64,000 bases of DNA. Source: Roseibium algicola. Its GTDB lineage: Bacteria > Pseudomonadota > Alphaproteobacteria > Rhizobiales > Stappiaceae. Position numbers and translations under genes: made by a program. Numbering within the stretch: the stretch's first letter is position 1; each line of letters opens with the position of its first letter. This document shows positions 24,829-42,900 of this stretch, piece after piece. The stretch is from assembly GCF_001999245.1 (NCBI RefSeq), contig NZ_CP019630.1, positions 3,935,001 to 3,999,000 of the forward strand, read 5' to 3'. The notes below the pieces were generated by a model, which saw nothing but the letters and a program-made list of their open reading frames with translations, had not been told where the DNA came from and did no database searches.

Positions 24829-25407
24829 TTAGCTCCAGACCGTTTCCTGTCCGTTTTCAAGCACATGAACCACGCCCTGCGGTTCCTTGAGGCTGAGGAT
24901 CCCGGTGTCATCGAGACCGAGAACGATACCCCGAATAACCTTGCCGATCTGGCCATGGGCCACTGCGATTGTCGGTCCCGTCAGGCCTGCAAGCCAGGCT
25001 CCGGCACGCTCACGCATCTGCTGCAGTGTCTCACCACCCGGCGCATCAAAATACCAGGTGTTGCCGGGCTTGCCGTTCATGTGTTCGGGATACTTCTCGA
25101 ACATCTCGGGCCTTGTCAGGCCGCTCAGACCGCCGACATCGATTTCGACGAGCAGGTCGGTTTCAACCGGCGAAAAGTCGAAGTTCTGCTGCAGGTACTG
25201 CGAGGTTTCCAGGGTTCGGCCCAAGGGGCTGACCATCTGGTCGTAACCTTCGGCTGATACCAGTTCGCGGGCGAGGATCTTTCCCAAGAGGGTCGCCTGC
25301 TCGCGTCCCTTTGCGGTCAGGGGAGAATCCAGCCGGCCTTGCGCACGGCCGATCAGGTTCCATTCTGTTTCGCCGTGGCGCATGAAGATGATTTTCGGAT
25401 GGGTCAT
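24829..25407 (-). CDS. Histidine phosphatase family protein (phosphoglycerate mutase-like)
   Basis: 192 residues starting MTHPKIIFMRHGETEWN; Arg10-His11-Gly12 is the phosphohistidine motif, and the second catalytic His lies in TIAVAHGQIGK. The length fits small cofactor-independent-of-metal acid phosphatases of this superfamily (GpmB/CobC/PhoE type) rather than the 2,3-bisphosphoglycerate mutase of glycolysis. Substrate unknown. No strong ribosome site is visible upstream, and it is transcribed away from the chemoreceptor gene's terminator, so it is probably a single-gene unit. Confidence 0.82.
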   Translation of the reverse strand: MTHPKIIFMRHGETEWNLIGRAQGRLDSPLTAKGREQATLLGKILARELVSAEGYDQMVSPLGRTLETSQYLQQNFDFSPVETDLLVEIDVGGLSGLTRPEMFEKYPEHMNGKPGNTWYFDAPGGETLQQMRERAGAWLAGLTGPTIAVAHGQIGKVIRGIVLGLDDTGILSLKEPQGVVHVLENGQETVWS

Positions 25408-25518: not shown

Positions 25519-27903
25519 TCAGGCTGCCGCCACTTCGTTGAGGAATGTCGTCACGGTCGACCGAATGCGTGCTGTCTGCTGGTTCAGGTCGTCGGAGGCA
25601 TTCAGAACATCGCTTGCGGATTTCCGGGTGTCCCCGATCGCGTCCGAAACGCTGGACATGTCTTCGACGACCGCCATGGTTCGATTGGAGGCGAGGGCGG
25701 CATTTCGCGCGATTTCGTTTGTTGCGTAGCCCTGCTGCTCAACGGGAGCGGCAATCGCGCTGGTGCACTCCGAGACGTCCTGCATTATCGCGACGATCTC
25801 GCCGATGGCCGTAACCGTTTCCGATGCGGACGCCTGCATGGCCGCAATCTGCGAGGCGATTTCGTTTGTCGCTCTTGCGGTCTGGGTTGCCAGCGACTTG
25901 ACCTCGGCCGCCACAACGGCAAAGCCCTTGCCGGCTTCCCCGGCACGAGCCGCCTCGATGGTGGCGTTGAGCGCCAGCAGGTTGGTTTGTTCGGCAATCT
26001 CGGAAATCAGGGAAACAACGCCTTCGATGCTTTGTGCGGTTTCCGCCAGGCCGGTGATCTTGCTGCTTGTCCGGTTGGCGTTGTCCGCGGCGTTGCTGAC
26101 GATCTGGCTTGACGTTTCCACCTGCCGGGCGATCTCGGCAATCGAGGCAGCCATCTCGTCGGTGGCAGCCGCGACTGCCTGAACGTTGCCGGAGGCTTCG
26201 TTCGAGGAACCGGTGGCGTTGCCGGTGAGGGAAGATGCCGTTTCGGCAATCACCGTCATCGACTGGGCTGTGTCCTGCATCTGTCCGGCATTTTCGGACA
26301 GGCTCTTCAGGACGTCCTGAATGTCATTGCGGAACCCGGCCACCAGCCTGTCTATATGCTGTTGGCGCTCCTCACTGGCCAACTGGCTTTGCATCCGTTC
26401 TTCGCCAAGGCGGCGGTTTTCCAGCAGGCTGTCACGGAAAATCAGGAGTGCCTGACGGAGCTGCCCAACCTCGTCGCGCGTGACCGCACCGTCGATCGTG
26501 ACATCGACTTCGCCGTCAGCCAGACGACGGGTGGCAGCTGTCAGAACGGACACGGGGCGGGCAACGGTGAACCAGAGTGCAACTGCCGCCGCAATGCCGA
26601 ACACCAGCCCGATCGCGGACACCGCCAACAGGATGAGTGTCGACCTTGCTTCCGTACTGGCGGCACCGGTTTCCAGCCTTTCGTTGAGCGCGGAAATGCC
26701 TTCGGCAAACTTTGTCTCGGCAGTGTCGGCAGCAGCAAGCGCAACCCGGAAATCTGCCATCGCTGAAGACAGTTTCGCAAAGGCACTGCCCAGGGTTTCG
26801 ATTGCGGTGCGCGCTGCAACCGCATCGGCTCCCGTCAGCATGGTGGACAACACCTGTTCCTGTTGCATCTGCAGGGCCGCGATACTGTCGAGCACTGCCT
26901 TGCGGGTAAGATCCGACCGGTTGACCTGGAACTGCCAGAACGCATCTGACAACACCCGGGCTTCGGCAGCAAAGTCGTCGCCGGCCTTGGCTTCGGCAAC
27001 AGCGGAGCGGGCAAGTCCCTCGATCGCCAGCATGTCGCCGTGGGCCGTCTTGAAGGCGCGGCCAAGGTCATTGCGCACGGCATCGGTCAGTCCGGCAAGG
27101 CTGTCAAAGCCCTTGGTCAGGGCGTCTCTCCTGGACAGCGCCTGGGACGGATCCTTCTGTACAGCGGAGAGCAGGGCGCGCATGGCGTTGGCGCCTTCGG
27201 CAAGGTCACGTGCGGGCTGCAGGTTTTCCGACACGGTTGCGGAGGACGTCAGCTTGCGGATCAGGAGATAATACTTGCCGAAGGATTTGCTGACCGCCTT
27301 CATGTGAGCCGCGTCCGGGTGTCGAAACAGTGTCTCCAGATCCAGCTTGAGTTGCATGGAGTGGGCGCTGGCAAGTGTTGCTGCCTGCGCGAGTTCACTG
27401 GCTGCTTCCCCGCTTGTTCTCAAGGATTGCAGCTCGTCGACCAGTTTCTGTTCGCGTTTCGCTGCCGTCTGGGCAACGCTGTGGCCGATCGCCATCAGGT
27501 TTTCCAGGGATGTCGTCATCTGCAGGCGTTTGCGTTCGATTTCTTCCTCGGAGGCAACCAGGGTGTCGAAAGCAGTCGAGAATGCCGCAATGTTGCCGGT
27601 CGCCGAGGCAACGTCTTCTCCGCCGGCTTGCAGAACGGACAGCGTCGCGGAGATGTCGGTCATGCTGTCCTTCACAACGGAGACGTCATCCGGATCGCCG
27701 GATTCGACGTAACGCGCTTTCAGGCGGTTCAGCTGGGCCATGGACATCAGGGCAGAGCCTGTTGTCTGGGAGGTTTGAATTGCCCCGCCCATCTGGCGCG
27801 TCGCAACATAGCCGACAACCGCAACGGACATTGTAAGCAGAACGGAAACAGCCATGCAGATGGCGAGTTTCATCGATATCGGAAGATTGCCGGCGGCTCT
27901 CAT
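25519..27903 (-). CDS. Methyl-accepting chemotaxis protein with large periplasmic domain
   Basis: 794 residues. TM1 is at about 11-33 ([20 protein letters not shown]), then a helical periplasmic domain of nearly 390 residues, TM2 at about 421-446 ([20 protein letters not shown]), HAMP at about 447-500 and the cytosolic signalling domain, whose hairpin tip is around [19 protein letters not shown] (about 640-660). The long helical sensor resembles double-bundle (HBM-type) ligand domains but its ligand is unknown. No cheA/cheW genes are nearby, so it feeds a chemotaxis array encoded elsewhere. GGGGG lies just before the ATG. Single gene with its own terminator. Confidence 0.92.
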
Positions 27904-28391: not shown

Positions 28392-29450
28392 TCAGAGCAA
28401 CACGGCGTTCCGGGTGTTGACGCTCATCTTCACTTCCATGCCGGGTTCGTACCAGTCGACACCGCCCACATGCTTCTGATCGATGATCAGCTCACTGCCT
28501 GCTGCTTCCACCAGGTAGCGCGTCTGGCTACCGAGAAATTCCCGGTGCTTGACCTTGCCCGTAATCAGGTCCGGGTGGTTCTGGTCGGTGACGATTTCGA
28601 TGTTCTGCGGCCGCAGCACGAGCGAAGATCCGTCGGGGCTGCCTGCACCGAGATGAAGCACTTCGCCGGAGGCAATCTTGAAGGTATTTCCACCGTTACC
28701 ACGCTGAAGTGTGCCGTCGATGATGTTTGCGGTTCCCAGGAATTTTGCCACGAACAGATTTGCCGGCGTGTCGTAGAGTTCCTGCGGCGTGCCCATCTGC
28801 TGGATGACACCGCCGTCGAGCACGGCCATTCGGTCGGCGGTGGTGTTGGCCTCTTCCTGGTCGTGGGTGACGAAGATGGTCGTCAGGCCCAGCTTCCTTT
28901 GAAGGGACAAAAGTTCCCGGCGCATCTGGATGCGCAGGCTGGCGTCAAGGTTCGACAGCGGCTCGTCGAGCAACAGGACATCCGGCTCGACGACGACGGT
29001 GCGGGCGAGAGCCACGCGCTGCTGCTGGCCGCCGGAAAGCTGGGAAGGCATGCGGTCGGCGAGATGCAGGAGGCCGACGAGTTCCAGCGCCGATTCAACA
29101 CGGGTACCGATGTCCTTGCGCGCGACTTTCCGCTCCTCAAGGCCGAAGGCGACGTTGGCACGAACCGACATGTGAGGCCAAAGGGCATAGGACTGGAACA
29201 CCATGCCGACATTGCGTTTCCAGGGCGGAAGCTTGGCAATGTCGCGGCCTCCGATGAGAATGCGTCCTCTGGGTGTCGGGCCGAAGCCTGCAATGGCACG
29301 CAGGAGGGTGGACTTGCCGGAGCCCGACGGGCCAAGGAAGGCGTAGAATTCACCCGGTTCGATGGTCATGTTGACGCCGCGCAGCACTTCGGTGGTGCCG
29401 AAGGAGAGATGCAGGTCCTCAATCCGTATTTCGACTGCTTTTCTGGTCAT
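28392..29450 (-). CDS. ABC transporter ATP-binding protein (AfuC/FbpC/PotA type)
   Basis: 352 residues. Walker A GPSGSGKST (40-48), Q-loop in MVFQSYALWPHMS, signature LSGGQQQRVALART and Walker B VLLLDEPLSNLD are all intact. The C-terminal ~110 residues form the TOBE-like regulatory domain of the iron/polyamine/phosphate-ester importer group (ASGEVLHLGAGS, then LVLRPQNIEI). It energises the permease encoded immediately upstream (27-bp gap). Ligand class is best judged from the neighbouring PgtABC-like sensor: an organophosphate such as a sugar phosphate or phosphoglycerate is more likely than free iron, but this is inference. Confidence 0.9.
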   Translation of the reverse strand: MTRKAVEIRIEDLHLSFGTTEVLRGVNMTIEPGEFYAFLGPSGSGKSTLLRAIAGFGPTPRGRILIGGRDIAKLPPWKRNVGMVFQSYALWPHMSVRANVAFGLEERKVARKDIGTRVESALELVGLLHLADRMPSQLSGGQQQRVALARTVVVEPDVLLLDEPLSNLDASLRIQMRRELLSLQRKLGLTTIFVTHDQEEANTTADRMAVLDGGVIQQMGTPQELYDTPANLFVAKFLGTANIIDGTLQRGNGGNTFKIASGEVLHLGAGSPDGSSLVLRPQNIEIVTDQNHPDLITGKVKHREFLGSQTRYLVEAAGSELIIDQKHVGGVDWYEPGMEVKMSVNTRNAVLL

Positions 29451-29477
29451 TGGAAGTGTTTCCTCGAAATTGAACGC

Positions 29478-31214
29478 TCAGTGGGATGCGCGGACTTCGG
29501 CCTTGCGGGCCCGGTCCTTCTCGATGATGCGGTTCGACAGGTACGTCCCCAGGCCGACGATCACGACGGCGAGGATGCCGAGTGCCGCCCCGGCACCCCG
29601 GCCGGACGGACTTTGCATGTAGAGGTAGATCCCGTAGGAGAGCGGAGCGTCGTTGCTGGTGGAGACCAGCATGATGGTTGCCGACAGTTCGACTGCGGCA
29701 GTCGCAAAGCTGGTGACGAAACCGGCGAGGATCCCCCCGGCCATCAGCGGAACGACGATCCTGCGGATGGAGCGGCCCTTGGAGGCGCCGAGGTTTTCCG
29801 CTGCTTCCTCAAGCGACAGGCTGACCTGCTGAAGCGCGGCCATGCAGGCCCTGAGCGCATAGGGCAGGCGGCGCACGGTCAGGGCGATCACGATGATGAC
29901 CCACCAGGACGCCAGCGGCTTGCCGATGACCGGCACCTCGAAGCTGTGGAACAGGCGCAGGTAGCCGATGCCGAGCACGACGCCGGGTACGGCAAGCGCG
30001 GCGGTCGCCATGTAGTCGAGCATCTTGCGGCCCTTGATGCCGGTTCGCAGCACGATGTAGGCGATTGCCGTTCCCAGGATGATGTCGAAGCCGGCTGCAA
30101 GGCCTGCATAGATCAGTGTGTTGACCACATATTGCAGGGACTGTTCGAACACGGTGGCGAAGTTGGCCAGCGTGTAGCCGTCCGGCAGCGGGCTGAACGA
30201 CCAGATCGTGCCGAACGCAAGCAGCGTCAGACCGAAATGCGGCGACAGGACCAGAAGCAGGATGAAGACGACGACGCCATAGGCAACGATCTTCTCGCCG
30301 CGCGACAGGTCGCGCCGGGCAAGGCCGCCACCACCCTTTTGAACCGTGGCGTAATCCTTGCCCCGCATGAACAGGAAGGACGCCCACAGCGAAAAGACCG
30401 AGAAGGCCACCAGGATGAAGGAAATGACGTAGCCCATCGGATCGCTGATGCCGACGGAGGAAATGCGCAGATAGGCCTGGGGGGCCAGCATGTTGTTGAC
30501 GTTGAGCAGCAACGGGGTGCCGAGATCGTCAAAGACCTTGATGAACACCAGCGCGGCGCCGGCAATGTAACCGGGCATGGCGAGCGGGAACACGATTCGG
30601 CGGAACAGGCGCAAGCCCGTGCAGCCGAGGTTCTGCGCCGATTCTTCCATTGCCTTGTCGATGTTGCGGAGCGACGCTGACAGGTTGATCAGGATGAACG
30701 GGAAATAGTGCAGAGACTGGACGAAGATGACGCCGTTCAGACCTTCCATGAACGGGATCTTGAAGCCAAGGTATTGCGACAGCAGAAGGTTGACCGTGCC
30801 GTTGCGGCCGAACAGAAGCTGCATCGCGATGGCGCCGACGAAGGGCGGCATGATCAGTGGGATGACGCCGATGCTCTGGATCAGCGCGCTTCCACCGAAG
30901 TTGAAACGGGTGGTGATATAGGCCAGCGGCAGGGCGATAACCGTTGCCACGACCACGGACATCGCCGAGACGTAGAAGGAGTTCACGAAGGAACTGCGGA
31001 ACAGCGACGAGCGGAAGAAATCGCCGAAATTCTGGAGCGTCAGGGCTCCTGTGTGGGGATCCTGAAAGGCGACATAGGTCACCTTCAAGACGGGAAGGAT
31101 GAGAAACGCCAGCAGGAAGATGGCGATCGCGACGCCCGCAATTGCGGTGCCGGACAGCTCGGGAAATATGCGCCACTGCCTTGCAGGCGCAGTCGCTGCA
31201 TTGCTCGTAGTCAT
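29478..31214 (-). CDS. ABC transporter permease, fused two-domain (AfuB/FbpB type)
   Basis: 578 residues with about 12 membrane helices in two homologous halves. Each half carries the cytoplasmic EAA loop that touches the ATPase: EESAQNLGCTGLRLF in the first and LEEAAENLGASKGRSI in the second. This duplicated form is usual for iron(III)/hexose-phosphate importers, where one gene replaces two permease subunits. The N-terminal tail before TM1 is short and polar. It lies between the binding-protein gene (after an 86-bp gap holding a hairpin) and the ATPase gene. Confidence 0.9.
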   Translation of the reverse strand: MTTSNAATAPARQWRIFPELSGTAIAGVAIAIFLLAFLILPVLKVTYVAFQDPHTGALTLQNFGDFFRSSLFRSSFVNSFYVSAMSVVVATVIALPLAYITTRFNFGGSALIQSIGVIPLIMPPFVGAIAMQLLFGRNGTVNLLLSQYLGFKIPFMEGLNGVIFVQSLHYFPFILINLSASLRNIDKAMEESAQNLGCTGLRLFRRIVFPLAMPGYIAGAALVFIKVFDDLGTPLLLNVNNMLAPQAYLRISSVGISDPMGYVISFILVAFSVFSLWASFLFMRGKDYATVQKGGGGLARRDLSRGEKIVAYGVVVFILLLVLSPHFGLTLLAFGTIWSFSPLPDGYTLANFATVFEQSLQYVVNTLIYAGLAAGFDIILGTAIAYIVLRTGIKGRKMLDYMATAALAVPGVVLGIGYLRLFHSFEVPVIGKPLASWWVIIVIALTVRRLPYALRACMAALQQVSLSLEEAAENLGASKGRSIRRIVVPLMAGGILAGFVTSFATAAVELSATIMLVSTSNDAPLSYGIYLYMQSPSGRGAGAALGILAVVIVGLGTYLSNRIIEKDRARKAEVRASH

Positions 31215-31237
31215 CGGCTATGGACTCCGGGGAAGAG

Positions 31238-31268
31238 GCCGCACCTTCCCTGTTCCGGGCGGTGCGGC
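31238..31268 (-). terminator. Intra-operon hairpin between binding-protein and permease genes
   Basis: GCCGCACC (31238-31245) pairs perfectly with GGTGCGGC (31261-31268) with a 15-nt loop, in the gap after the binding-protein stop on the minus strand. Similar in place and likely role to the hairpin after tctC. Confidence 0.55.
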
Positions 31269-31300
31269 AAGTTCGACGTGATGTTGTTTTTGGTTTTCCG

Positions 31301-32623
31301 TCAGAGGCTGGCGGCTTTTTCCGCCAGAGCCTTGGCCTTTGCGTAGTTCTCGACCACGAAGGCATCCCACTGCTGCTCGACTTCTGCCTGGCGACCCTCG
31401 ATGACGTCGCTTTCCTTCTTGCGTTTCTGCTGGAAGACGGCGGCGAAGGAGGGGTCGAGACTTTCTTCCTCGGTGATGGGGGTAGCGTCGATGAGTGCGC
31501 GTGCTTCGGCGATCAGTGCCTTGGCTTCCGCATTGTCCTTGTCGGCAAGCGCAATCTCGGCAAGCTGCACGGCCCTGACGGCTTCACGCAGCTCGGTCAG
31601 ACGATAGGTGACCATGACGTCGAACAGGGAATTGACGACGTTGTAGCGCTTTTCCGAGCGGTCGGCGTCGAAGTTGACCGATGCCTTCACATCGTCGCCT
31701 TCGAACGGGTTCGGAATGCCGTCCGGTGCGGTCGCGTACGCAGCCGGGTTGACCGGCAGACGCATGATGGCCGGATCGAACAGGACCTGCTGGCCTTCCG
31801 GCGACAGCACGAACTCGATGAACGCCTTTGCACCTTCCGGGTTTGGAGCGTTTTTCACGACGCCGATGTTGGCAGGTACAACGGCAGTGACCGACGGATA
31901 GGCGAAGTCGACCGGGAAGCCGGACGCGCGGGACGAAAAGCCAAAGAAGTCGATAACGACGCCGAGGCCGAAGTTGCCCGAGTTGACGCCATCCGGCACA
32001 CCGAAGCTGCGCTCGGTGACCGTGTTCATGTTACCGGAAATCCACTTCCAGTCGGCCCAGCCCTTTTCCCAGCCAGCGCCCTGCAGAAGCGTTTCGACCG
32101 TCAGGTGCGTGGTGCCGGAGCGGGACGGTGCGGACATGCCGACATGACCGAAATATTCCGGCTTGGCCAGGTCTTCCCATTCCTTTGCCGGTTCCAGCTC
32201 GTTGGCCTGCAGGTAGCGGGTGTTCCACATGATGCCGTAACCGGATGCGGCAAAACCGTAATAGAAGCCGTCGGGATCATTGATCGGGTACGTGCCGATC
32301 TTTTCCGGAATGCCTTCGGCGTTGATTTCGACCTTGGCAAGCAGGTCGTTGCCCTTGAGCACTTCGAACGCATCGGGGGCGGATGCCCACATCAGGTCGG
32401 ACGTGTTGTTTCCGGCGGTTTCCTGAATGTATTTGACAGCCGCGGACGTTCCCTTGCTCAGGATCTCCAGCTCGTAGTCAAGGTTGGATGCAGCAAAGGC
32501 GGCTTCGAATGCATCGGTCAGTTCCTTCGGAAAGGATGTCACGACGACCACCTTGTCGGCAGCATTCGCCACGCCGGCAGACACCAGCAGTCCCAGTGCC
32601 GTCAGGCCCAGTAATTTCCTCAT
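31301..32623 (-). CDS. ABC transporter extracellular solute-binding protein (AfuA/FbpA type)
   Basis: 440 residues; the ATG follows GGAGGAG. Signal peptide MRKLLGLTALGLLVSAGVAN then A. The mature protein has the family-1-like binding fold: VVVTSFPKELTDAFEAAF at the start, LMWASAPDAFEVLKG and SRSGTTHLTVETLLQGAGW in the body. It is clearly paralogous to the sensory binding protein at 36132-37445 (WSSSPEAFSLLEK, SGSTHMLLEVILQDRGWDRG). First gene of the importer operon. Relatives were named iron-binding but the A. pleuropneumoniae Afu system takes up hexose phosphates; the ligand here is therefore uncertain. Confidence 0.9.
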   Translation of the reverse strand: MRKLLGLTALGLLVSAGVANAADKVVVVTSFPKELTDAFEAAFAASNLDYELEILSKGTSAAVKYIQETAGNNTSDLMWASAPDAFEVLKGNDLLAKVEINAEGIPEKIGTYPINDPDGFYYGFAASGYGIMWNTRYLQANELEPAKEWEDLAKPEYFGHVGMSAPSRSGTTHLTVETLLQGAGWEKGWADWKWISGNMNTVTERSFGVPDGVNSGNFGLGVVIDFFGFSSRASGFPVDFAYPSVTAVVPANIGVVKNAPNPEGAKAFIEFVLSPEGQQVLFDPAIMRLPVNPAAYATAPDGIPNPFEGDDVKASVNFDADRSEKRYNVVNSLFDVMVTYRLTELREAVRAVQLAEIALADKDNAEAKALIAEARALIDATPITEEESLDPSFAAVFQQKRKKESDVIEGRQAEVEQQWDAFVVENYAKAKALAEKAASL

Positions 32624-32649
32624 TGGATTATGTCTCCTCCATTCTGACG

Positions 32650-32672
32650 CAAGGGGGTGATCCAGCCCCTTG
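32650..32672 (-). promoter_or_regulatory. Hairpin in the 5' leader of the binding-protein gene
   Basis: CAAGGGG (32650-32656) and CCCCTTG (32666-32672) pair perfectly with a 9-nt loop, 27-49 nt upstream of the start codon. It may affect mRNA stability or translation of the importer. Confidence 0.4.
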
Positions 32673-32742
32673 TTCGTTCAGCGAAGAAACGCTATCACTG
32701 GCGAAATTTTCGAGTCAAATTATTGAATTTATTGGTATTTTT

Positions 32743-32770
32743 GTGTCAAAATTGACACGTTCAACGTGTC
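32743..32770. promoter_or_regulatory. Two overlapping perfect dyads: triple GTGTC/GACAC operator
   Basis: GTGTCAAAATTGACAC (32743-32758) and GACACGTTCAACGTGTC (32754-32770) are both perfect dyads and share the central GACAC, giving three alternating half-sites. They end 3 bp before the regulator's stop codon and lie 120-147 bp upstream of the importer's first gene, the usual distance for an upstream activator site. Binding by the adjacent NtrC-family protein is inferred. Confidence 0.6.
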
Positions 32771-32772
32771 GA

Positions 32773-34110
32773 TCATGACCCGTCTTCCTCCGCAAGGCCG
32801 CAGCTTTTCAGGCGCAGGTAAAGTCTCTTGCGCGGGATACCGAGCAGTTCGGCGGCTTCTGCCTTGCGGCCACCGGTCTGTAGCAGAGCGTTCTGCAAGA
32901 GCTCGGTTTCGAAGGCGGTCATGGCTGCCTCATAGCCTGTGGAGACCTCAATTGGTTGGCCGCTGCCTATCTGCAGGTCAGCCTCCAGGCCGATGACAAG
33001 CCGTGCAGCGATGTTGCGAATTTCGCGAACATTGCCGGGCCAGTCATAGGTGAGGAACTGCTTTTTCTGGCGCTGCGACAGTTTCGGAAGCGGCAGGCCG
33101 TGGTTTTCCGAGGCCTGATCCAGAAGGTGTTCCATCAGTTCGATGACATCCCCGCCGCGTTCACGCACCGGCGGGAGGGACAGGGTCGCCACATTCATCC
33201 GGTGATAGAGATCGCCCCGCAGGCGGCCATCGTGAACGAGGGCGGCAGGATTGGTCTTCACGCCGGCGATGACGCGGATGTCGACCGGGACGGCATCGCT
33301 GCCGCCCAGCCTGGTGATCTTGCGCTCTTCCAGTACACGCAGAAACCGCGTCTGCAGCGCATTGGGCATGGAATCAAGTTCATCCAGATAAAGTGTTCCG
33401 CCCTGCGCCCGTTCGATCCGCCCCGGGAAGGATCCGTTTTCGGTTTCGAAGCCGAACAGTTCGCGGTCGATGTCCATCTCCGTGACGGCACCGCAGTTGA
33501 TCGTCACAAGCGGCCCCGGCGCGCGCGGGGACAGTTGGTGCAGACAGCGTGCGGTCAGGTCCTTGCCGGTGCCGGTTTCGCCGTGCAGAAGCACATCGAC
33601 ATTCAGCGGGCCGATGCGCGAAATCGTCGACCGCAGGTCAGCCATGACCTGCGAACTGCCGATTAACTCACCCTGAGGATCGCGGATGCGCTGAACCTTG
33701 CGCCGCAGCGCCAGGTTTTCGAGTTGCAGCCTGCGCTTTTCAAGTGCCCGGCGGGCCGTGTCGATCAGGTGTTGCGGTTCGGTGGATTTCTCGATGAAGT
33801 CATAGGCGTTGTGCTTCATCGCCTGGATCGCGGTCTTTACGTCGCCGTGTGCCGTAATGACGATGAAGGGGACCTGTGGGGCAGTTTCCTGGATCAGGCG
33901 CAGAAACTCCATGCCGGTTCTGCCGGGCATGCGAATATCGCTGATGACGATGCCGTTCCAGTTTGGCTGGATCTGTTCGGCAATCACATTGGCGTTGGCG
34001 TAGCAACGTACGCTGAACCCGGCGAGCTCGAGCGTTTCCTGCATTGCTTCCAGCAGATCCGCATCATCGTCGACCAGAACGATTTCGCCCGTTTCAAACC
34101 GAGTGCTCAA
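32773..34110 (-). CDS. NtrC-family response regulator, PgtA/DctD-like, lacking the GAFTGA loop
   Basis: 445 residues; TTG start (34110) with GGGG upstream, overlapping the kinase gene by 17 bp. Receiver domain 1-125 with phospho-acceptor Asp58 in VISDIRMPGRTG; AAA+ domain about 145-370 with Walker A GETGTGKD (177-184), Walker B TLYLDELDSM and the arginine-finger region RGDLYHRMNV; Fis-type HTH at about 395-440 (GGRKAEAAELLGIPRKRLY). At the place of the sigma-54-contacting GAFTGA loop the sequence is GSFPGR (226-231) and the segment is about five residues short. It probably activates with another sigma factor, and its likely target is the adjacent importer operon. Confidence 0.88.
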   Translation of the reverse strand: MSTRFETGEIVLVDDDADLLEAMQETLELAGFSVRCYANANVIAEQIQPNWNGIVISDIRMPGRTGMEFLRLIQETAPQVPFIVITAHGDVKTAIQAMKHNAYDFIEKSTEPQHLIDTARRALEKRRLQLENLALRRKVQRIRDPQGELIGSSQVMADLRSTISRIGPLNVDVLLHGETGTGKDLTARCLHQLSPRAPGPLVTINCGAVTEMDIDRELFGFETENGSFPGRIERAQGGTLYLDELDSMPNALQTRFLRVLEERKITRLGGSDAVPVDIRVIAGVKTNPAALVHDGRLRGDLYHRMNVATLSLPPVRERGGDVIELMEHLLDQASENHGLPLPKLSQRQKKQFLTYDWPGNVREIRNIAARLVIGLEADLQIGSGQPIEVSTGYEAAMTAFETELLQNALLQTGGRKAEAAELLGIPRKRLYLRLKSCGLAEEDGS

Positions 34111-36139
34111 GCTGCCCCACCTTGTTCTGTGCCGCGCATGGCAGCCTCAGCTGAACGGTTACGCCACCCCGGTCGTTTTCCGCAAGTTCCAGATGCCCGT
34201 CCATGTCCTGCATGATGTTGAAGGAGATGGTCAATCCAAGACCGAGACCCTTGCCGACTTCCTTGGTGGTCACGAACGGGTCGGTCAGCTGCGTTGCCGA
34301 TTGCCCCTGAAGGCCGATGCCGTTGTCGGCGATCAGGATGGTCGCGTCACCGCCGGTTTGCTCTGCCTCGATGCGGATTTCACCGCCGCCTGCCGCTTTC
34401 ATGTCGATGGCGTCGACCGAGTTGCCGATGACGTTGATCAGGACCTGTTCCAGCAACACGGGATCCGCGCGGAGGGTTAGCTTGCCGGCAGCATCGGAGA
34501 CCTTGAGCGCGACGCTGCTTTCCTCCAGGCGCCGCTCGAACAGCGATACGACAGGTTCCAGGGCCTGATCCAGCGTCAGGTCCTTGACCGCGTAGTCCGA
34601 ACGGCGGGCAATGCCGTTCAGGTGCTTGATGACGCGCGACATCCGCTCGGCAAGGTTTTCAACGACGTCGACCTTGGCTTCGACCGCTTCGCTCTTGCCC
34701 TTGGCAAGCAGCAGTCGAAGATTGTGCAGGTGATGCTTCATGGCCGCGAGCGGCTGGTTCAGTTCGTGACTGATGCCCGCAGACATCTGGCCGAGAGCCG
34801 CCAGCTTGCCGGCCTGAACAAGTTCGCGCTGGGTTTGCTTCAACTGGTCGAAGGCGCGTTTGCGCTCCACGATTTCCTTTTGCAGGTTTTCGTGGGTTCT
34901 GTTCAGTTCGACTACGGAGGATCTGAAGATCTCCGTCGCTGCCCCCATGCGGGCAATTTCGTCGTTGCCGCGTGTGGGGATCGGCGTGGAGAGATTGCCC
35001 TGAGCGATCTCGATCAGGGCTTCTGCCAGCCGGTGCAGTCGGGCAACGATCTGGTTGCGGACATAAAACAGCAGAATGCCGGCGCAGATGACGCCGCAGA
35101 TGACAGTTGCGACGGCCAGCAGCAGAGAGGCAATGCGCAGCCGTTCGGCTGCCTGATTGGTAAAGGTGAGGGCGGCAAGACGGCGTTCCCTGCCCAACTC
35201 GACCAGGGCTGCCTGAAGATCTGCGACGGCGGCCTGTGCGGTACTGAGGTCGCCAAGTGCCTGTTGCTGCAGCTCGATCCGGTCACGCGATCCTGCAAAG
35301 ACCCCCGTTTCGTCATAGGCGAAGGCCTGCAGACGCTCCAGCGAGGACACCAGCGTTTCGGTGTCGGCCTTTTGCGGGACTTCCGCCAGCATGCCCTGGA
35401 GGTTTTCAAGCGCGTCGAAATTCAGATCTTCAAGCTGCGCGAGTTTTTCCGCCGTGTCGACGTAAAGCGCCTGCAGCAGGAAGGTAATCGCCGTCGCCGT
35501 GCTTGACCCGATTGTCTGCATCTGTTCGCGAAGCAGTGTTTCCTGCCGGATGATCGCGGCAGCCGCGACCCGGTCGGTGCGCGACTGCGAGCGGACCATT
35601 TCGGACGACAGGCTGTCGATGTTGAAGGACAGGTCCTGAATGCGGGCAGCGACTTCGGTCTGGATATCGATCTGCAGCCAGCGCAGTTCCACCTGGTAGT
35701 GTTCCAGCGACCTGTTGATTGCCTGAAGATCCCGGGAGACCTGCAGGAAGGAGCCGAGCTTGTCGCTCAAGGTTTCCTTCGCCTCGATTATCTTCGCGGT
35801 GTTTTTCGTGTCGCTCAGGATGTTTGTTTCCAGAAGGCCCGAGATGCCCTGGCTTGCGGCTTCCACATCCTCGCGCATGGCTTCCGGTTCGCGTTCCCGG
35901 GTCTGCGCGGCAATCTCGGTCGCGATGACGGCCAGCCGCGTCGCATATTCGGAAAGCTCGGATGCCAGGGCGATTTCCGGAATGCTCTTTTCGGTGATCT
36001 CACCAAAATCGCTGCGTGCCTGAGTGAAGAAGACCACGCCGATGGCCAGGATGATCCAGGTGATCGCGGCAATCGTGAGGATGGACAGCAGCAATCGAAA
36101 CCATATCGTGCCGCGCCCGCGGTTTGCCGTCTCAGTCAT
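34094..36139 (-). CDS. Membrane sensor histidine kinase (PgtB-like)
   Basis: 681 residues. TM1 about 12-35 (LLLSILTIAAITWIILAIGV), a ~300-residue helical periplasmic domain, TM2 about 335-360 (LLLAVATVICGVICAGILLF), HAMP, a coiled coil, then HisKA with phospho-acceptor His in ISHELNQPLAAMKHHLHN and a HATPase domain (NVIGNSVDAI; ADNGIGL; GKGLGLGLTI). It lies between the binding-protein-like gene and the regulator gene, overlapping both (8 and 17 bp), so the three are made together. By analogy with Salmonella PgtB it would read the state of the periplasmic binding protein and phosphorylate the regulator. Confidence 0.9.
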   Translation of the reverse strand: MTETANRGRGTIWFRLLLSILTIAAITWIILAIGVVFFTQARSDFGEITEKSIPEIALASELSEYATRLAVIATEIAAQTREREPEAMREDVEAASQGISGLLETNILSDTKNTAKIIEAKETLSDKLGSFLQVSRDLQAINRSLEHYQVELRWLQIDIQTEVAARIQDLSFNIDSLSSEMVRSQSRTDRVAAAAIIRQETLLREQMQTIGSSTATAITFLLQALYVDTAEKLAQLEDLNFDALENLQGMLAEVPQKADTETLVSSLERLQAFAYDETGVFAGSRDRIELQQQALGDLSTAQAAVADLQAALVELGRERRLAALTFTNQAAERLRIASLLLAVATVICGVICAGILLFYVRNQIVARLHRLAEALIEIAQGNLSTPIPTRGNDEIARMGAATEIFRSSVVELNRTHENLQKEIVERKRAFDQLKQTQRELVQAGKLAALGQMSAGISHELNQPLAAMKHHLHNLRLLLAKGKSEAVEAKVDVVENLAERMSRVIKHLNGIARRSDYAVKDLTLDQALEPVVSLFERRLEESSVALKVSDAAGKLTLRADPVLLEQVLINVIGNSVDAIDMKAAGGGEIRIEAEQTGGDATILIADNGIGLQGQSATQLTDPFVTTKEVGKGLGLGLTISFNIMQDMDGHLELAENDRGGVTVQLRLPCAAQNKVGQLEHSV

Positions 36140-37445
36140 TGACAGTCAGACCATTCCGGATGCTTGCCTCGAGCCCGGTCAGCATGGCATCGACTTCCGC
36201 CAGTTGCTCCCTGGCGGCAACGCGCCAAGTGGCAAGGCTCCATTCTTCGCCGGTTCCGACAAGCGAGTTCGCGCCTTCCTCCTGTGCGTCCCGGTAGCGT
36301 TCCGAGCGTACGGCATCGATCTCGGACACGGGAAGCTGGTTGAGCTTCTTCTTAATCTTGATCAGCGAAGGGACGAGATCGGGAGGCGCCTGACGGCTCA
36401 AAGTTTCCAGGCGCCGCAACAGGTTTCTGCGCTGAACCAGATTTCTGGTGATGAAGATGTCGAACAGGTCGTTGACGGCCTGATACCGGGTTTCGGCAAG
36501 ATTGGGGTCATAGGTGGACCAGCTGAATTTCAGCGCAGCCTGCACTTCCCTGGGGAACTGGTTCAGGGATTGTTCGCGAACAGTGGTGTCCACCGGAATC
36601 CTGCGGATGTCGGGCTGTGTCAGCAGTTCCTGCGCCGGTTTGCTCAACATGAAATCGATGAACAGGCCCGCCTCCTCATGGGCGGAACCGTGGTTGAGAA
36701 CGGAAATCCGGGCAGGGGCCATCATGACCGGTTGACCATATTGAAAGCGGACGCCGTCGTCGGCTTCCGTCAGCGCGAGAAAATCAATCGACAGGCCGAC
36801 ATCGAAGCGGCCGCGCTTGAGCCCCTCTATGACACTGAAACTGCGGGCGGTGATGGTCTTGAGGTTCTGGGACAGGCCGAAGATATACTGCCAGCCCCGA
36901 TCCCAGCCGCGGTCCTGAAGGATGACTTCCAGCAGCATGTGCGTGGACCCTGACCGGGCAGGGTGGGACATGGCCAGCCTGTCCTGAAAGCGTGCGTCCA
37001 GCAGATCGTTCCAGCTTGTGGGCGGCCTGCCTTCAAAGTCTTCCATCCAGCACCAGCCGACACCGGAATAGGCGAAATCGACAAAGGTCTCGCTGCTGTC
37101 CTGTGAGCGTTCCCGCAGGCGGCCAAATTTCTCGAGAAGGGAAAAGGCCTCCGGTGACGATGACCAGAACAGGTCGAAGCCGCGCGGGTTGTCCAGCAGG
37201 ATTTCCTCGACCGAGGCGACCGTGTTCTTGTTCAGGACGGTAACGTTGATCGCCGGATACTTCTTCGAAAACGCATCGACGAAGGGCTTCGTGAAATAGT
37301 CCGGAAAGGACGTCAGGACACGAAGATCCCGCGCGTTTGCGGCAGTCAACAGCAGGAGTGTCGCCAGGCAGGACATCGCAATGACGGCCAGCATGACGGA
37401 TATTTTCTGAAAACTGATTGCGCCTGACATCCCGGATTGCCTCAT
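36132..37445 (-). CDS. Periplasmic solute-binding protein of a sensory operon (PgtC-like)
   Basis: 437 residues from the ATG at 37445 (AAGGTG upstream; 37430 is an alternative). A signal anchor (ISVMLAVIAMSCLATLLLL then TAANA) precedes RDLRVLTSFPDYFTKPF. It is a paralogue of the importer's binding protein: WSSSPEAFSLLEK and SGSTHMLLEVILQDRGWDRG align with matching segments there. It is encoded with the kinase and regulator, not with the permease, as PgtC is with PgtA/PgtB, so it probably presents the ligand state to the kinase. The C-terminal region has extra charged helices (KIKKKLNQLPVSEIDAVRSE) that could contact the kinase. Confidence 0.85.
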   Translation of the reverse strand: MRQSGMSGAISFQKISVMLAVIAMSCLATLLLLTAANARDLRVLTSFPDYFTKPFVDAFSKKYPAINVTVLNKNTVASVEEILLDNPRGFDLFWSSSPEAFSLLEKFGRLRERSQDSSETFVDFAYSGVGWCWMEDFEGRPPTSWNDLLDARFQDRLAMSHPARSGSTHMLLEVILQDRGWDRGWQYIFGLSQNLKTITARSFSVIEGLKRGRFDVGLSIDFLALTEADDGVRFQYGQPVMMAPARISVLNHGSAHEEAGLFIDFMLSKPAQELLTQPDIRRIPVDTTVREQSLNQFPREVQAALKFSWSTYDPNLAETRYQAVNDLFDIFITRNLVQRRNLLRRLETLSRQAPPDLVPSLIKIKKKLNQLPVSEIDAVRSERYRDAQEEGANSLVGTGEEWSLATWRVAAREQLAEVDAMLTGLEASIRNGLTVND

Positions 37446-37519
37446 TTGGAGGCACCTTATATCAGAATTCCGAACGTCGACGGAAATATGCACGGCGAGG
37501 GTGCCAGACCCTTCGGGTT

Positions 37520-37537
37520 CCGCCGCGTGTCCGGCGG
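37520..37537 (-). terminator. Short hairpin downstream of the OmpR-type regulator gene
   Basis: CCGCCG (37520-37525) pairs with CGGCGG (37532-37537) around 6 nt, 20 nt after the regulator stop on the minus strand and upstream of the sensory binding-protein gene. Only a six-base stem, no T-run; weak evidence. Confidence 0.35.
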
Positions 37538-37557
37538 CCTGAGCGGGACAAACCGGG

Positions 37558-38256
37558 CTAGCTGTCCATCTTGCAGGCGGCGCTGAAGGAATACCCGACG
37601 CCATAGACAGACTTGATGGGCGATTCCACCCCGGTCTGATCCTGGATCTTGCGCCTGAGGCGGCTGACGACGGCATCCAGATGCCGGTTGTCGAACTGGG
37701 TCTGGCGATTGGAAAGAAGCCGGGAAAGATCGTCCCGGGCGCAAGGAGCGCCGGAATTGGAGACCAGGGCTTCCAGAAAGATCCTTTCGGTTGCGGTCAA
37801 CTTTATGGCGTCGCCGTCCGGTGGCAGAAGCTTCCAGGAGACATTGTCCAGCACCCATTCTGCCGTGCTGTTGCCTTCTGACGAAGAAGCACCGGACAGT
37901 CTGCGTATGAGGCTCTGCACCGCAGCCAGTATTTCCCTGAGGCTGGTGTGCTTGACGAGATAGATGTCCGCGCCGCTGTCGAACCCGCGGACACGGCTTT
38001 CGCTGTCTCCGTGTGCGGTCAGCATGATGATGCCGCAATTGATTTTCGCCCTCAGGTCACCTGCAAGGTCGAAGCCGTTTCCATCCGGCAGCGAGACATC
38101 CAGGATCACGACATCCGGTCGGTCCGCGTCATCCAGCGCGGTCCACATTTCGGCCGCGCCGCCCGCACCGCTGACCTGAAAGCCGTTGAGACGCATATAA
38201 TCCAACAGGTCGGCGCGAAGAGCACTTTCGTCCTCCACGATCAAAATCCTGTTCAT
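37558..38256 (-). CDS. OmpR/PhoB-family response regulator
   Basis: 232 residues. Receiver domain with acidic pocket (LIVEDE) and phospho-acceptor Asp53 in VVILDVSLPDGNGFDL, Thr in MLTAHGDSE and Lys in YLVKHTSL; C-terminal winged helix (about 135-228) with KLTATERIFLEALVSNSG and VVSRLRRKIQ. Its start overlaps the kinase stop as ATGA, so the pair is translationally coupled. Such regulators bind direct repeats about 10-11 bp apart; one lies in the 228-bp region upstream of the kinase and of the divergent adhesin gene. Confidence 0.9.
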   Translation of the reverse strand: MNRILIVEDESALRADLLDYMRLNGFQVSGAGGAAEMWTALDDADRPDVVILDVSLPDGNGFDLAGDLRAKINCGIIMLTAHGDSESRVRGFDSGADIYLVKHTSLREILAAVQSLIRRLSGASSSEGNSTAEWVLDNVSWKLLPPDGDAIKLTATERIFLEALVSNSGAPCARDDLSRLLSNRQTQFDNRHLDAVVSRLRRKIQDQTGVESPIKSVYGVGYSFSAACKMDS

Positions 38257-39710
38257 GCCGGTTCCTCCTCCTGCATGGTCTCAGAGTCCGCTCGCGCAAA
38301 TCCGGGAAGCGGCAGGAAAACTCTGGCAATCGTGCCGCCGCCTTGTCTTGCACTCAAATCCAGATGTCCCTGGTGATAGCCGACGAGCTGCCGGCAGGAA
38401 TGCAGGCCGAGCCCGCTGCCTCCGGTTCCGCCTGTATTCGAGGCCCTGTAGAAGCGGTTGCCGATCTGCGCCTGGTCCCGATCCGGAATGCCGATCCCGC
38501 GGTCCTTCACTTCCAGAACGATATCACCGTTCTGGGCCCCTATCGTGATCTCGACCTCGGCGTCCCTTGGTGAGTATTTGAGCGCGTTGTCGACCAGATT
38601 AACGATCACCGTGCGGAGCATCTCGGTATCTCCCCGGTATGCCGGCATCGGCGCAACGGGATGAAGTCTGAGGCGTTCGCCAAGGCCGGCATGGTCGAAG
38701 TGCCGCTGAACGTCCTCATAAAGGGCCGGGAAATCTACCTGCTCGATCTTCAGCACACCTTCATCCTGCCGCTCGCTTGCAAGAAAACGATCGATCAGCA
38801 TCGTCATGCGGGAAACGGCCTCGTCGATGCTTTTCAAACGTTGGGCGACAGCCTGTTGCGGTCGTTCCAGCATCAGGGTGAGCATGTCGCTAGCGTAGCG
38901 GATTGCGGCCAGGGGGGTGCGAAACTCATGGCTGACCATGCGCATCAACTGGCGCTGGTCCTGGCGGGCGGCCTTTTCCCCTTCCAGACTGGCGGACAGT
39001 TCTCCCTCCAGGCGCCGTCTCAATGTTACTTCGCGCGCAAGCGCGGCGTTGCGGTCGCGCAAATCCATGGACAGGCGCATGCCCACCATGAAGATCAGAC
39101 AGAAGAAAAAGCCGACAATGAAGATGTGTCCCTGGAAGAAGTACCATGTGTTGATGTTGGTCATCACCGGATTGGCAACCGTCGATGGCTGAATATAGAC
39201 GAGTGCGCTCTGCAGCAGACTTGCGGCGGAATATTCCCCAAGCAGGAAGATCATGATCCAGCGCAGGAAAGGGGGTTGGGAGCGGTCGCGGTAAAGCGTC
39301 CGGATCATCAGTGCCATCATCACCACCGTGAAGGCAGTGGAGGCATGAATGCGCAGGCCGAGGTCTGTCGGGTCATAGACAACGGCGAAGATCCAGAACA
39401 GGAGCTGTGCCGCGAGACAGAACGCGCTGATACCGACAAAACGTGGTTGTCCGAGGAAGCGCGCCAGGCCGTCGGCCCACAGGACCAGGCCAAACTTGAG
39501 CACCATGTTGTCCGTCACGACGCGAATGAGCGATGGGTCCGGACCGCGCTGCAAATAGAGAAACAAACCAATCGCAATGGCGAAGAAGCCGGCCGCAATG
39601 ACCTTCAGCTCATAGATCTGACGCCAGACGAACCAGACGAGAAGCCAGGCAACGGACATGAAAGCGGTTGTCGCGAATTCCAGCAGCAACATGGTCTTGA
39701 GATCGAGCAT
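38253..39710 (-). CDS. Sensor histidine kinase with multi-helix membrane domain
   Basis: 485 residues. About seven hydrophobic helices fill the first ~220 residues with almost no periplasmic domain (a 7TM-like input unit). A short coiled coil leads to HisKA with phospho-acceptor His in RMVSHEFRTPLAAIRYASDM and a HATPase domain (NLVDNALKYSPRD; KDRGIGI; GSGLGLHSCRQL). Input is probably something in or at the membrane. No clear ribosome site precedes the ATG at 39710; none of the in-frame alternatives is better. It faces the adhesin gene across 228 bp. Confidence 0.88.
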   Translation of the reverse strand: MLDLKTMLLLEFATTAFMSVAWLLVWFVWRQIYELKVIAAGFFAIAIGLFLYLQRGPDPSLIRVVTDNMVLKFGLVLWADGLARFLGQPRFVGISAFCLAAQLLFWIFAVVYDPTDLGLRIHASTAFTVVMMALMIRTLYRDRSQPPFLRWIMIFLLGEYSAASLLQSALVYIQPSTVANPVMTNINTWYFFQGHIFIVGFFFCLIFMVGMRLSMDLRDRNAALAREVTLRRRLEGELSASLEGEKAARQDQRQLMRMVSHEFRTPLAAIRYASDMLTLMLERPQQAVAQRLKSIDEAVSRMTMLIDRFLASERQDEGVLKIEQVDFPALYEDVQRHFDHAGLGERLRLHPVAPMPAYRGDTEMLRTVIVNLVDNALKYSPRDAEVEITIGAQNGDIVLEVKDRGIGIPDRDQAQIGNRFYRASNTGGTGGSGLGLHSCRQLVGYHQGHLDLSARQGGGTIARVFLPLPGFARADSETMQEEEPA

Positions 39711-39834: not shown

Positions 39835-39938
39835 TGATTAGTATTGGTAGGTGGAATTCGATATCTCGCCATCTGTATTTACACCAATGTTGACCGTCGT
39901 GGGCACAAGACGACGCAACAGCGGGAGTATTGATACAA

Positions 39939-42900
39939 ATGGCGTTCAGGACCCGAAGCACCGGCGTTTCAAGCGCACCGGTTGAGCCTGCCATTCCATC
40001 CGGCTCTAACCGGACAGCCTCCCTTGCCGCATTTCTGCTGCTGACGACAGCTCTTGTCCCCACCGCAGCATTTTCCGGCGATGCCCTGCCGCAAGGGGGC
40101 AGTTTCACGCATGGCAACGGAACCATTACGCAAGGTGGTTCACGGGTTGATGTGAAGCAATCAAGCGATGCCGGTATCGTGAACTGGGGCAGCTTTTCCA
40201 TCGGCTCCGGCAATCAGGTTCATTTCGACAACGGCGCCGGTGCCACGCTCAATCGGGTCACGGGCAATGTGCCGAGCCGTATCGATGGCAGCCTCAGCGC
40301 GACGGGCAGCGTGTTTCTCGTCAATCCCGCCGGAGTTGCGGTTGGCAGCGGCGGCCTTGTGTCGACAGGTGGTTCGTTTGTCGCTTCGACGCAGGACGTT
40401 ACCGACAGCGATTTTCTGAATGGCGGCGGCCTGACCTTTTCCGGCACGAGCGGTGCCGAAGTCGTAAATGCGGGCACTATCCGGTCAGCGCAGGGTGACA
40501 TTGCACTGATTGCGCGCCGCGTTGAAAATAGTGGCACGCTTGAAGCGCCCAACGGCACCGCAGCCCTTGCCGCTGGCTACGAAGTCCTGATGAAAGACAT
40601 CGCCGATGCAGACGGCCTGTTGTCGGTCAAGCTTGGGGGAGCCGATACCGAAGCACTCAATTCCGGAACCATCGCGGCGGCCAACGCTGAAATCCGCGCG
40701 AATGGCGGCAATGTCTTTGCGCTGGCTGGAAACACGGATGGTGTCGTCAAGGCAACCGGTGTCAGCACTTCCGGTGGCCGGATATTCCTGACGGCGGGCA
40801 ATACGGGCAAGGTCCAGGTCAGTGGCAAGCTCAAGTCGCGCAGACTGGCGGAGAACGTTCCGGTGCCGGGTGCAAAGCCGGCGACCGAGGGTGGCGCTAT
40901 CACGGTGACGGGCGGAGAAATCACGATCACCGGTACGCTCGACGCCTCGGCGGAAGAAAGCGGCGTCAAGGGTGGTGAAATCGTGGTGTATGCCGAGGAC
41001 ACGGCAAGTGTTTCCGGAACGTTGAGCGCTAGGGGCGGCGTGGGCGGTGAAGGTGGCTTTGTCGAAACGTCTGCCCGAAACACGATCGATTTTACCGGCA
41101 TCACGGTCGATACCTCGTCTGAAGGCGGTCAGACCGGACTCTGGCTGATCGACCCGGTTGACCTGACGGTCGATGCGGCGGCGGCTGCAACGATCTCTTC
41201 CAACCTCGCCAGCAACAACGTGAGCCTGCAGACCACCAACTCGTCTGCAAGCGGTCCAGGCAACCAGAGTGCCGGCGACGGCAACATCACCATCAATTCC
41301 GGCATCACCTGGACGAGCACAAACAGGCTCACGCTCAATGCCTATAACGACATCGCGATCAATGCGGCCATTGACGGCCAGAACGGTGGGCTGACCCTGC
41401 TGGCCTACGGCAACAGCGGCACGGCTGCTGTCGGCACGATCTCGACGGGAGCGGCCGGCGCGGTCGATGTCGACAATTTCGCTCTCACAAGGGGTGTCTG
41501 GGATCAGGTCGGCACGGGCCTGCCAGACTTTGCCACGAACGCACTGAGTGTTGGATTCGGCACTTTCATCCGGGCGCAGGGTGGCGATGGCACTTTTTCC
41601 AACCCTTATGCGCTATTTGACGTTTATGGCCTGCAAGGGATCACGACCAGTGACAGGCGTGGTGGCGGGTCCGGCGATATCAGCCTTTACTATGAGCTTG
41701 CGAACGATATCGACGCGTCGATGACATCATCGTGGAATAACGGTGCTGGCTTTGACCCTGTTTCCTTTTCCGGAAGCCTGGATGGCAAGGGACATACGAT
41801 AGACGGCCTCTATATCAACCGGCCTTCCGAAGGTAATGTCGCACTCATAAGTTATTGGCAAGACAACTATTTCACTTCTGGACGTGACCTGGAGATAAAG
41901 GACCTCACACTCACGAACGCGTCTGTTACCGGCGACAACCAGACGGCAATTCTGGTAGGCGACACAGGCGGTGGGAACTATCACGGTCACAACATGTCGA
42001 ATGTGACTGTCAGTGGAACTGTTCAGGCGAATTCCTGGGGCGCAGGCGTCGTGGCCAGGTATTTCGGCAACATCGACCAGTCGACCATGACCAATGTTCA
42101 TGCCGATGTTTCCGTCACGACGACGGATGGGGGCAGTGCTACCGGCGGCCTCGTCGCAATTATGGGTGAAGGGCTGATAATATCGAATTCCAGCTCGACT
42201 GGATCGATAACCGGAGGGCAGGTCGGTGGTCTTGTCGGCACCACAGACGACAACGACAACAGGATCGAAAATTCCTATTCGACGGCGACAGTCACCTCGT
42301 CAGGGAGCTTTCGGGAGGCTGGTGGACTGGTTGGGTACGCGGAAGACCTTACGATCTCGAATTCGTATTTTGCCGGTCAGGTGCTCGGTACAAACGGCGC
42401 CGCGGCTGGAGGGCTCATCGGTACGGCCGACAGGAACACGGTTATTCAGAACTCCTTTGTTACGGGTCTCGTAGAGGCTGAAGGGTATGCAGCCGCATTG
42501 GTCGCTGAAGTCTCCGACTCAAGCGTTTCAATAACCGACTCGGCCTGGGATACTGAAACGACCGGACAAACCGAGGTGATTGGTTACACGAATTCCTATA
42601 CCCCCACCGTGACCAACACGAGCGGCCTGACCACTTCCCAGATGCAGGGATCCCTGACCCTGGGCAGCTTTACCCTGGACAGCAGCATCTGGGGCACTGG
42701 CAGCGGACTTTTCCCTTATTTCAAGTGGGAGTATGCCGCCACACCCGAGGCGGTCTCAGGCATGGCCTACAGTGACGCGGGCACGACAGCCCAATCCGGA
42801 GCAAATGTCAGCGCGCTTTCCGGCGGCAATCTTGTCGGCAGTGCTGTGACCGGGGCAAACGGGTATTATTACATCCTGACCACGGCCGGGTCGCTCAATT

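Follow-up and report, generated by a model that had tools for sequence, protein, structure and literature searches.

TyrR of Escherichia coli is an NtrC-family protein that works at sigma-70 promoters. At mtr, it is described as activating transcription via the alpha subunit of RNA polymerase from two close boxes upstream of the -35 element, and each box obeys a G-N14-C rule with an N6 core, the two lying 8 bp apart (PMC4374768). Four other relatives of the enhancer-binding proteins without an intact GAFTGA loop, namely Rhodobacter capsulatus NtrC, Caulobacter NtrC, HupR and VpsR, have been reported or proposed to act at sigma-70 promoters, and alterations or deletions in this loop (L1) are reported to weaken or eliminate function with sigma-54 (PMC10274813, PMC3162934). 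In Salmonella, the PgtABC trio of binding protein, kinase and response regulator controls the transporter PgtP, and PgtC is reported to sense 3-phosphoglycerate (PMC11077982). A term search of the main text of the Salmonella sigma-54 regulon paper (PMC3844500) returned neither pgtA nor pgtP. Among importers, AfuABC is described as importing sugar phosphates (PMC4546632) and P5PAB as importing pyridoxal phosphate (PMC8427247).

The 64-kb stretch of DNA analyzed here (the window) encodes a PgtABC-like trio beside an ABC importer in place of PgtP (Table 1). The regulator and kinase hit the models for PgtA and PgtB, respectively, with scores under the cut-offs (270.7 bits against 650 for the regulator with the PgtA model NF047793), and the regulator also falls below the cut-off of the NtrC model. 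The true start of the sensor binding protein is probably downstream of the listed ORF start. In Paracoccus denitrificans, of which strain PD1222 carries this cluster, the annotated order is sensor protein, kinase, regulator, gap, binding protein, permease and ATPase. For the importer genes, the hits are to aminoethylphosphonate-type and other importer models, none of them reaching the cut-off. The solved binding protein closest in sequence to that of the importer is P5PA, a pyridoxal phosphate binder; the importer protein also matches an AfuA-type chain and the PhnS2 model, with scores far below the model cut-offs. The chain in question, 4r72, is named as an iron-type component in the database, and we take it to be AfuA. 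A histidine phosphatase gene stands right after the ATPase gene or one gene further on in 9 of the 11 annotated cluster relatives, and a phosphoglycolate phosphatase gene is found in 5 of the 11; the two annotated relatives of the GAFTGA-less kind include one with the former and none with the latter. A phosphorylated carbon compound is a likely class of ligand.

Several neighboring genes were also observed. Between the importer and an ORF read by eye as histidine phosphatase-like (24829-25407), a kind of gene that accompanies the cluster in relatives, stands a putative chemoreceptor ORF (25519-27903), likewise named by eye. A second two-component pair, an OmpR-type regulator with a kinase (37558-39710), lies upstream of the sensor operon and was not seen next to the cluster in the annotated relatives. 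By eye, the ORF at 23210-24622 resembles a caspase-type peptidase, and the very long ORF at 39930-45326 a secreted repeat protein of the filamentous-haemagglutinin kind.

Table 1. Features of the regulator-importer locus in window coordinates
Feature	Position	Strand	Basis or remark
ABC ATPase of importer	28392..29450	-	profile match
Fused ABC permease of importer	29478..31214	-	profile match
Importer substrate-binding protein (P5PA/AfuA/PhnS2-like), first gene after operator	31301..32623	-	profile and structure-sequence matches
Candidate weak -10 TAGCGT, 18 bp from -35 (alternative ATAGCG, 17 bp)	32689..32694	-	predicted from sequence only
-35-like hexamer TTGACT (sigma-70 type)	32713..32718	-	fixed operator distance across loci; missed by standard consensus scan
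Spacer from operator to -35-like element, 24 bp	32719..32742	-	24 or 34 bp in 14/15 loci, 33 in one
Promoter-proximal dyad GTGTC-AATTTT-GACAC (first dyad of the preliminary description)	32743..32758	-	window patterns and locus comparison
Linker GTTGAAC, 7 bp	32759..32765	-	length fixed (7 in 12 loci, 8 in 3), 39% pairwise identity
Promoter-distal dyad GGGTC-ATGATC-GACAC	32766..32781	-	covers stop and last two regulator codons; matching pair in 15/15 GAFTGA-less loci
Response regulator: receiver, AAA+ (shortened loop L1, GSFPG replacing GAFTGA), Fis-type HTH	32773..34110	-	domain and alignment matches
Histidine kinase, PgtB-like (below model cut-off), presumed partner	34094..36139	-	profile match
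Periplasmic binding protein in PgtC place, presumed ligand sensor	36132..37676	-	profile match; same gene order in relatives

A preliminary description of this site had reported two perfect dyads, GTGTCAAAATTGACAC at 32743-32758 and GACACGTTCAACGTGTC at 32754-32770, placed 120-147 bp upstream of the importer's first gene and beside the regulator's stop codon. Both were verified at these positions, and the distances agree with the first ATG of the importer at 32623 and the stop codon at 32773-32775, which leaves a gap of two bases. Each pattern occurs once in the window, where shuffles expect 0.06 occurrences of GTGTC-N6-GACAC and 0.07 of GACAC-N7-GTGTC. In the 6.65-Mb genome, a search allowing up to three mismatches found one exact copy of GACACGTTNAACGTGTC and none with one mismatch. 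The description as a triple half-site had overlooked a fourth, conserved half-site, GGGTC on the minus strand (GACCC on the plus strand) at 32777-32781. This half-site lies within the last two codons of the regulator gene, and the distal dyad therefore spans the stop codon. Read on the importer strand (minus), the operator at 32743-32781 is GGGTC-ATGATC-GACAC, GTTGAAC, GTGTC-AATTTT-GACAC. The operator unit comprises a pair of 16-bp dyads, GGGTC-N6-GACAC and GTGTC-N6-GACAC, with 7 bp between them, and the N7 dyad consists of the inner halves of this pair, facing each other.

Conservation of the dyads in orthologous loci had been proposed as a check of the site, and a twin dyad was found at the regulator-importer junction in all 15 distinct GAFTGA-less loci that were readable. 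The twin-dyad and promoter counts rest on these 15 loci; the closest regulators, P0002-P0004 (82-86% identical), lie outside them. Since the operator consensus was derived from the window and two Paracoccus loci, the other 12 loci serve as tests. A 7-bp linker is present in 12 loci, of which eight are exact to the consensus, one has one mismatch and three have two; an 8-bp linker is present in three loci, all from one genus, each with one mismatch. Departures from the consensus are thus seen in 7 of the 15 loci, four by one or two bases and three by the longer linker plus one base. Among the 12 non-redundant loci (omitting the near-copies L137, L138 and L092), the half-sites were 89% identical in pairwise comparison, against 50% for the N6 spacers, 40% for the 23 downstream bases and 39% for the linker; as judged from this comparison, the half-sites are maintained while the neighboring sequence drifts. 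As four half-sites are conserved, the three-half-site reading was rejected. The N7 dyad was also rejected as the unit, since its inner halves are perfect in L148 and L149 and imperfect (not 5+5) in the 12 remaining loci besides the window. In the window, GACACGTT-G-AACGTGTC can fold by pairing of the inner arms, and the 5-base inner arms pair also in L148 and L149, as might be expected of a transcription terminator or RNA hairpin ending the regulator operon. However, the scan found no terminator-like site, and in 12 of the 14 other loci the 5-base inner arms are imperfectly complementary although the DNA half-sites are conserved. We rejected the terminator on the negative scan and give a hairpin of this kind next to no credence.

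Beyond the junction, the 39-bp pattern was searched with up to three mismatches in 11 genomes or replicons, 10 of which carry the regulator. With 0-2 mismatches, it matched the regulator-importer junction in 8 of these 10, and the other two belong to the genus with the 8-bp linker. A second twin site with 0 or 1 mismatch was found in none of the 11, and sites with up to three mismatches outside the junctions numbered 21 per strand compared with 22 for a reversed-pattern control; therefore, a wider regulon for the twin site was rejected. Two sites with two mismatches elsewhere, one in G777 and one in G867 (Pandoraea), are unexplained, and a regulator of the GAFTGA-less kind was not found in G867 (query P0073, threshold 1e-125). 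The chance of an exact 39-bp match is approximately 1 in 10,000 per genome of 6.65-Mb size if equal base frequencies are assumed. Near the sensor operon in the window, a search for dyads with at most one mismatch came up empty, and hence nothing indicates that the regulator acts on its own operon via such a site.

The regulator has the domains of a sigma-54 bEBP, an AAA+ activator domain (Pfam Sigma54_activat, 157 bits) and a Fis-type HTH (HTH_8, 42 bits), but GAFTGA is absent and no -24/-12 promoter was found upstream of the importer. A total of 2304 proteins met the homologue threshold, and among the 120 matches listed, GAFTGA or close forms are absent in 108 and present in 12. Across 61 aligned sequences, the segment between the loop start and the GGT motif measures 25 residues in all 28 GAFTGA rows and 7-20 residues in the 33 GAFTGA-less rows; the window regulator has 20 residues, five fewer, with GSFPG at the GAFTGA position. 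D58, K108 and the helix residues R427, K428, R429, Y431 and R433 are kept in 33/33 GAFTGA-less rows. Walker B E244 is kept in 22 of these rows compared with 28/28 GAFTGA rows, counts that may be blurred by the alignment in the shortest-loop rows L146 and L149, and arginine-finger R304 is retained in 28/33 compared with 28/28. In the maximum-likelihood tree, the GAFTGA-less rows form one side of a single branch (support 100/98), and the small clade of the window regulator groups beside the GAFTGA-bearing rows (94/78). The trees took in 26 of the 120 listed homologues and left out L041, L055 and L089. On this tree, GAFTGA loss is placed as one change. Because the GAFTGA loop is gone, the regulator would not remodel sigma-54; it belongs to the NtrC family by domains and most likely works like a GAFTGA-less sigma-70 regulator. 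These data suggest that the label "sigma-54 dependent transcriptional regulator," carried by two of these proteins in public records, is wrong. L055 (GAFPGA) and L089 (GAFAGA) are DctD-like regulators with altered loops and may represent other steps away from sigma-54.

The promoters of homologous importers differ with the regulator. All 14 importers adjoining a GAFTGA-bearing regulator have a sigma-54 -24/-12 match with at most two mismatches, each equalled in 0-12 of 300 shuffles. At this threshold, none of the 15 GAFTGA-less loci has a match; their best matches have 3-5 mismatches, with three in L148 (equalled by 32/300 shuffles) and four upstream of the window importer (equalled in 185/300). 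Four importers without an adjacent regulator (L128, L131, L150 and L152), counted apart, all have an exact sigma-54 match, and L128 and L150 have a GAFTGA regulator at a distance of at least two genes. These data bear on the mechanism implied by the preliminary description, in which the dyads would form a classical NtrC-type upstream activating sequence acting from a distance on a -24/-12 promoter. Although the family membership of the regulator and the sigma-54 matches of homologous importers with GAFTGA-bearing regulators speak for such an enhancer, the loop is absent, no sigma-54 promoter was found at the window importer and the site lies 24 bp upstream of a -35-like element. We consider this model highly improbable and rejected it on the loss of GAFTGA and the lack of a -24/-12 match.

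The arrangement of the dyads also differs between the two forms. Eight sigma-54 loci (two each from Chelatococcus, Aminobacter and Ensifer, and one each from Pseudochrobactrum and Shinella) carry two GTTACC-N4-TGACCC dyads spaced 32-34 bp apart, compared with 23-24 bp in the GAFTGA-less loci, and their dyad centers precede the -24 element by 50-96 bp. For three loci from Azospirillum, the dyad matches overlap and permit a spacing of 32 or 23 bp, so that the contrast in spacing is clear only in the other eight. The type of site is associated with the recognition helix: PRKRLYLR in the 15 GAFTGA-less loci and PRKKLYLR in seven GAFTGA-bearing loci (the window's family and Maritalea) occur with GNGTC/GACNC-type sites, and [ST]RKTLYLK in nine loci occurs with GTTACC-N4-TGACCC-type sites. 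GNGTC/GACNC dyads with at least 4/5 arm pairs were found in 21 of the 22 PRKRLYLR/PRKKLYLR loci and in 0/9 [ST]RKTLYLK loci; the exception is L105, whose dyads have one mismatch each, and in L146 the left halves begin with A. One GAFTGA-bearing locus, L143, has one perfect GGGTC-N6-GACCC dyad, and therefore single dyads of the GGGTC kind are not confined to the GAFTGA-less form.

It is conceivable that another DNA-binding protein owns the site and that the regulator is a mere neighbor, since single perfect dyads are generic and binding by the regulator is a prediction from comparison. However, the kind of operator varies with the recognition helix of the neighboring regulator, and each of the 18 homologous importers examined that lack a GAFTGA-less regulator beside them has at least five mismatches to the twin site at either spacing, which makes another owner very unlikely. 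Because the site type follows the recognition helix, the site appears tied to the adjacent regulator. The tie of the twin site to the regulator is well supported by these comparisons, and the link of the site with both regulator and importer, as put forward earlier, is borne out by the 15/15 conservation and by the change of half-site type with the recognition helix. In one genus of the window's family, both forms are represented: three species have the GAFTGA-less regulator and six a GAFTGA-bearing one, and in every case the promoter is of the type that goes with it. As reconstructed on the tree, regulator and promoter type differ together by one change; the regulator-promoter link thus rests on a single evolutionary event retained across many lineages rather than on several independent ones.

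Downstream of the proximal dyad, a -35-like TTG is found at 24 bp in six loci, at 34 bp in eight and at 33 bp in L105. A TTG at 24 or 34 bp is present in 11 of the 12 non-redundant loci, and 0/2000 base shuffles reached 11 (maximum 5); the test scanned all position pairs 10 bp apart, and the 10-bp difference had been noticed before it. The two spacings are one helical turn apart, as an activator touching the polymerase from one face would need. As to activity at a sigma-70 promoter, a conserved TTG stands at a fixed distance, yet the -10 matches are weak across loci and a standard scan found no consensus sigma-70 promoter in the window. Weak -10 elements and an absent consensus promoter suit an activator-dependent promoter, with sigma-70 as the presumed sigma factor. 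We considered whether the regulator might instead occupy the twin site as a repressor, shutting the importer off until a signal releases it. TyrR is described as both activating and repressing (PMC4374768), and the string TTGACA lies inside the proximal dyad of the window. As a -35 element, this string was rejected because NTGACC or NTGACG stands at the corresponding bases in the other 14 loci, which leaves no conserved -35 there. Moreover, the conserved -35-like element 24 or 34 bp downstream has an activator layout, and the weak -10 elements also argue against repression. Thus, we regard a repressor as unlikely.

Overall, the repeat is very probably a conserved docking site for a two-component regulator that no longer has the element required for work with the sigma-54 polymerase, as far as can be judged from comparative evidence. 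With a probability of roughly three in four, we propose that the twin operator is bound by two dimers of the adjacent regulator and that these recruit sigma-70-type, not sigma-54, RNA polymerase from upstream. Two dimers of the regulator would bind the 16-bp dyads GKGTC-N6-GACMC, 23 bp from center to center, and in a TyrR-like manner would bring the polymerase to the importer promoter. The dyad centers would lie near -68 and -91 if the start site is approximately 7 bp past the -10 element. Binding, activation rather than repression, the sigma factor and the ligand class are what we infer in this proposal. The outer G and C of the G-N14-C rule are present in both window dyads, the N6 core is that of GKGTC-N6-GACMC, and an adjacent pair upstream of a -35 element is the TyrR-type arrangement. 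TyrR differs in responding to aromatic amino acids, in its half-site TGTAAA and in box spacing (8 bp compared with the 7-bp linker in the window); it also regulates several operons, whereas the twin site occurs once per genome in the genomes searched. The four other regulators without an intact loop have other targets and lie outside the tree built here.

We tentatively suggest that the clade may be a conversion series from a sigma-54 ATPase to a plain sigma-70 activator, with the window regulator as an early intermediate. The window loop would have been cut by only five residues, with GSFPG as a remnant, and other members would have shortened the loop further, to as few as 7 residues, before losing Walker B and arginine-finger residues. 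Throughout, the receiver and helix residues would have stayed fixed, and the promoter and dyad spacing would have changed alongside.

The regulator is rare in the genomes searched. Relatives above threshold were found in 1 of 45 genomes of the genus (its own), in 4 of 87 of the family (its own included), in 5 of 394 of a Rhodobacteraceae set and in five Paracoccus plasmid records. Two class-level searches returned its own genome only (1/385 and 1/376), and a search of Burkholderiaceae gave 0/398, a result that shows little because the search had no positive control. In the contig scan, the loci with a readable loop among the matches listed show GAFTGA or close variants, and importer-based searches added further loci. 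At the thresholds used, the importer binding protein and the regulator both went undetected in the other 44 genomes of the genus. Therefore, the cassette (28392-37676) was probably acquired horizontally, as its distribution suggests.

Regulators that lack GAFTGA and act at sigma-70 promoters are already known, but the present clade, with its matched promoter, looks like a new form of them. We found no report on the GAFTGA-less clade in the open-licence literature, which is not proof of absence. To our knowledge, the transition from a sigma-54 opener to a sigma-70 recruiter is known from scattered single cases only. In the loci compared here, importer cassettes of one kind occur in both versions, even among species of a single genus, each with a defined operator and promoter, and the switch is therefore testable by swapping parts.
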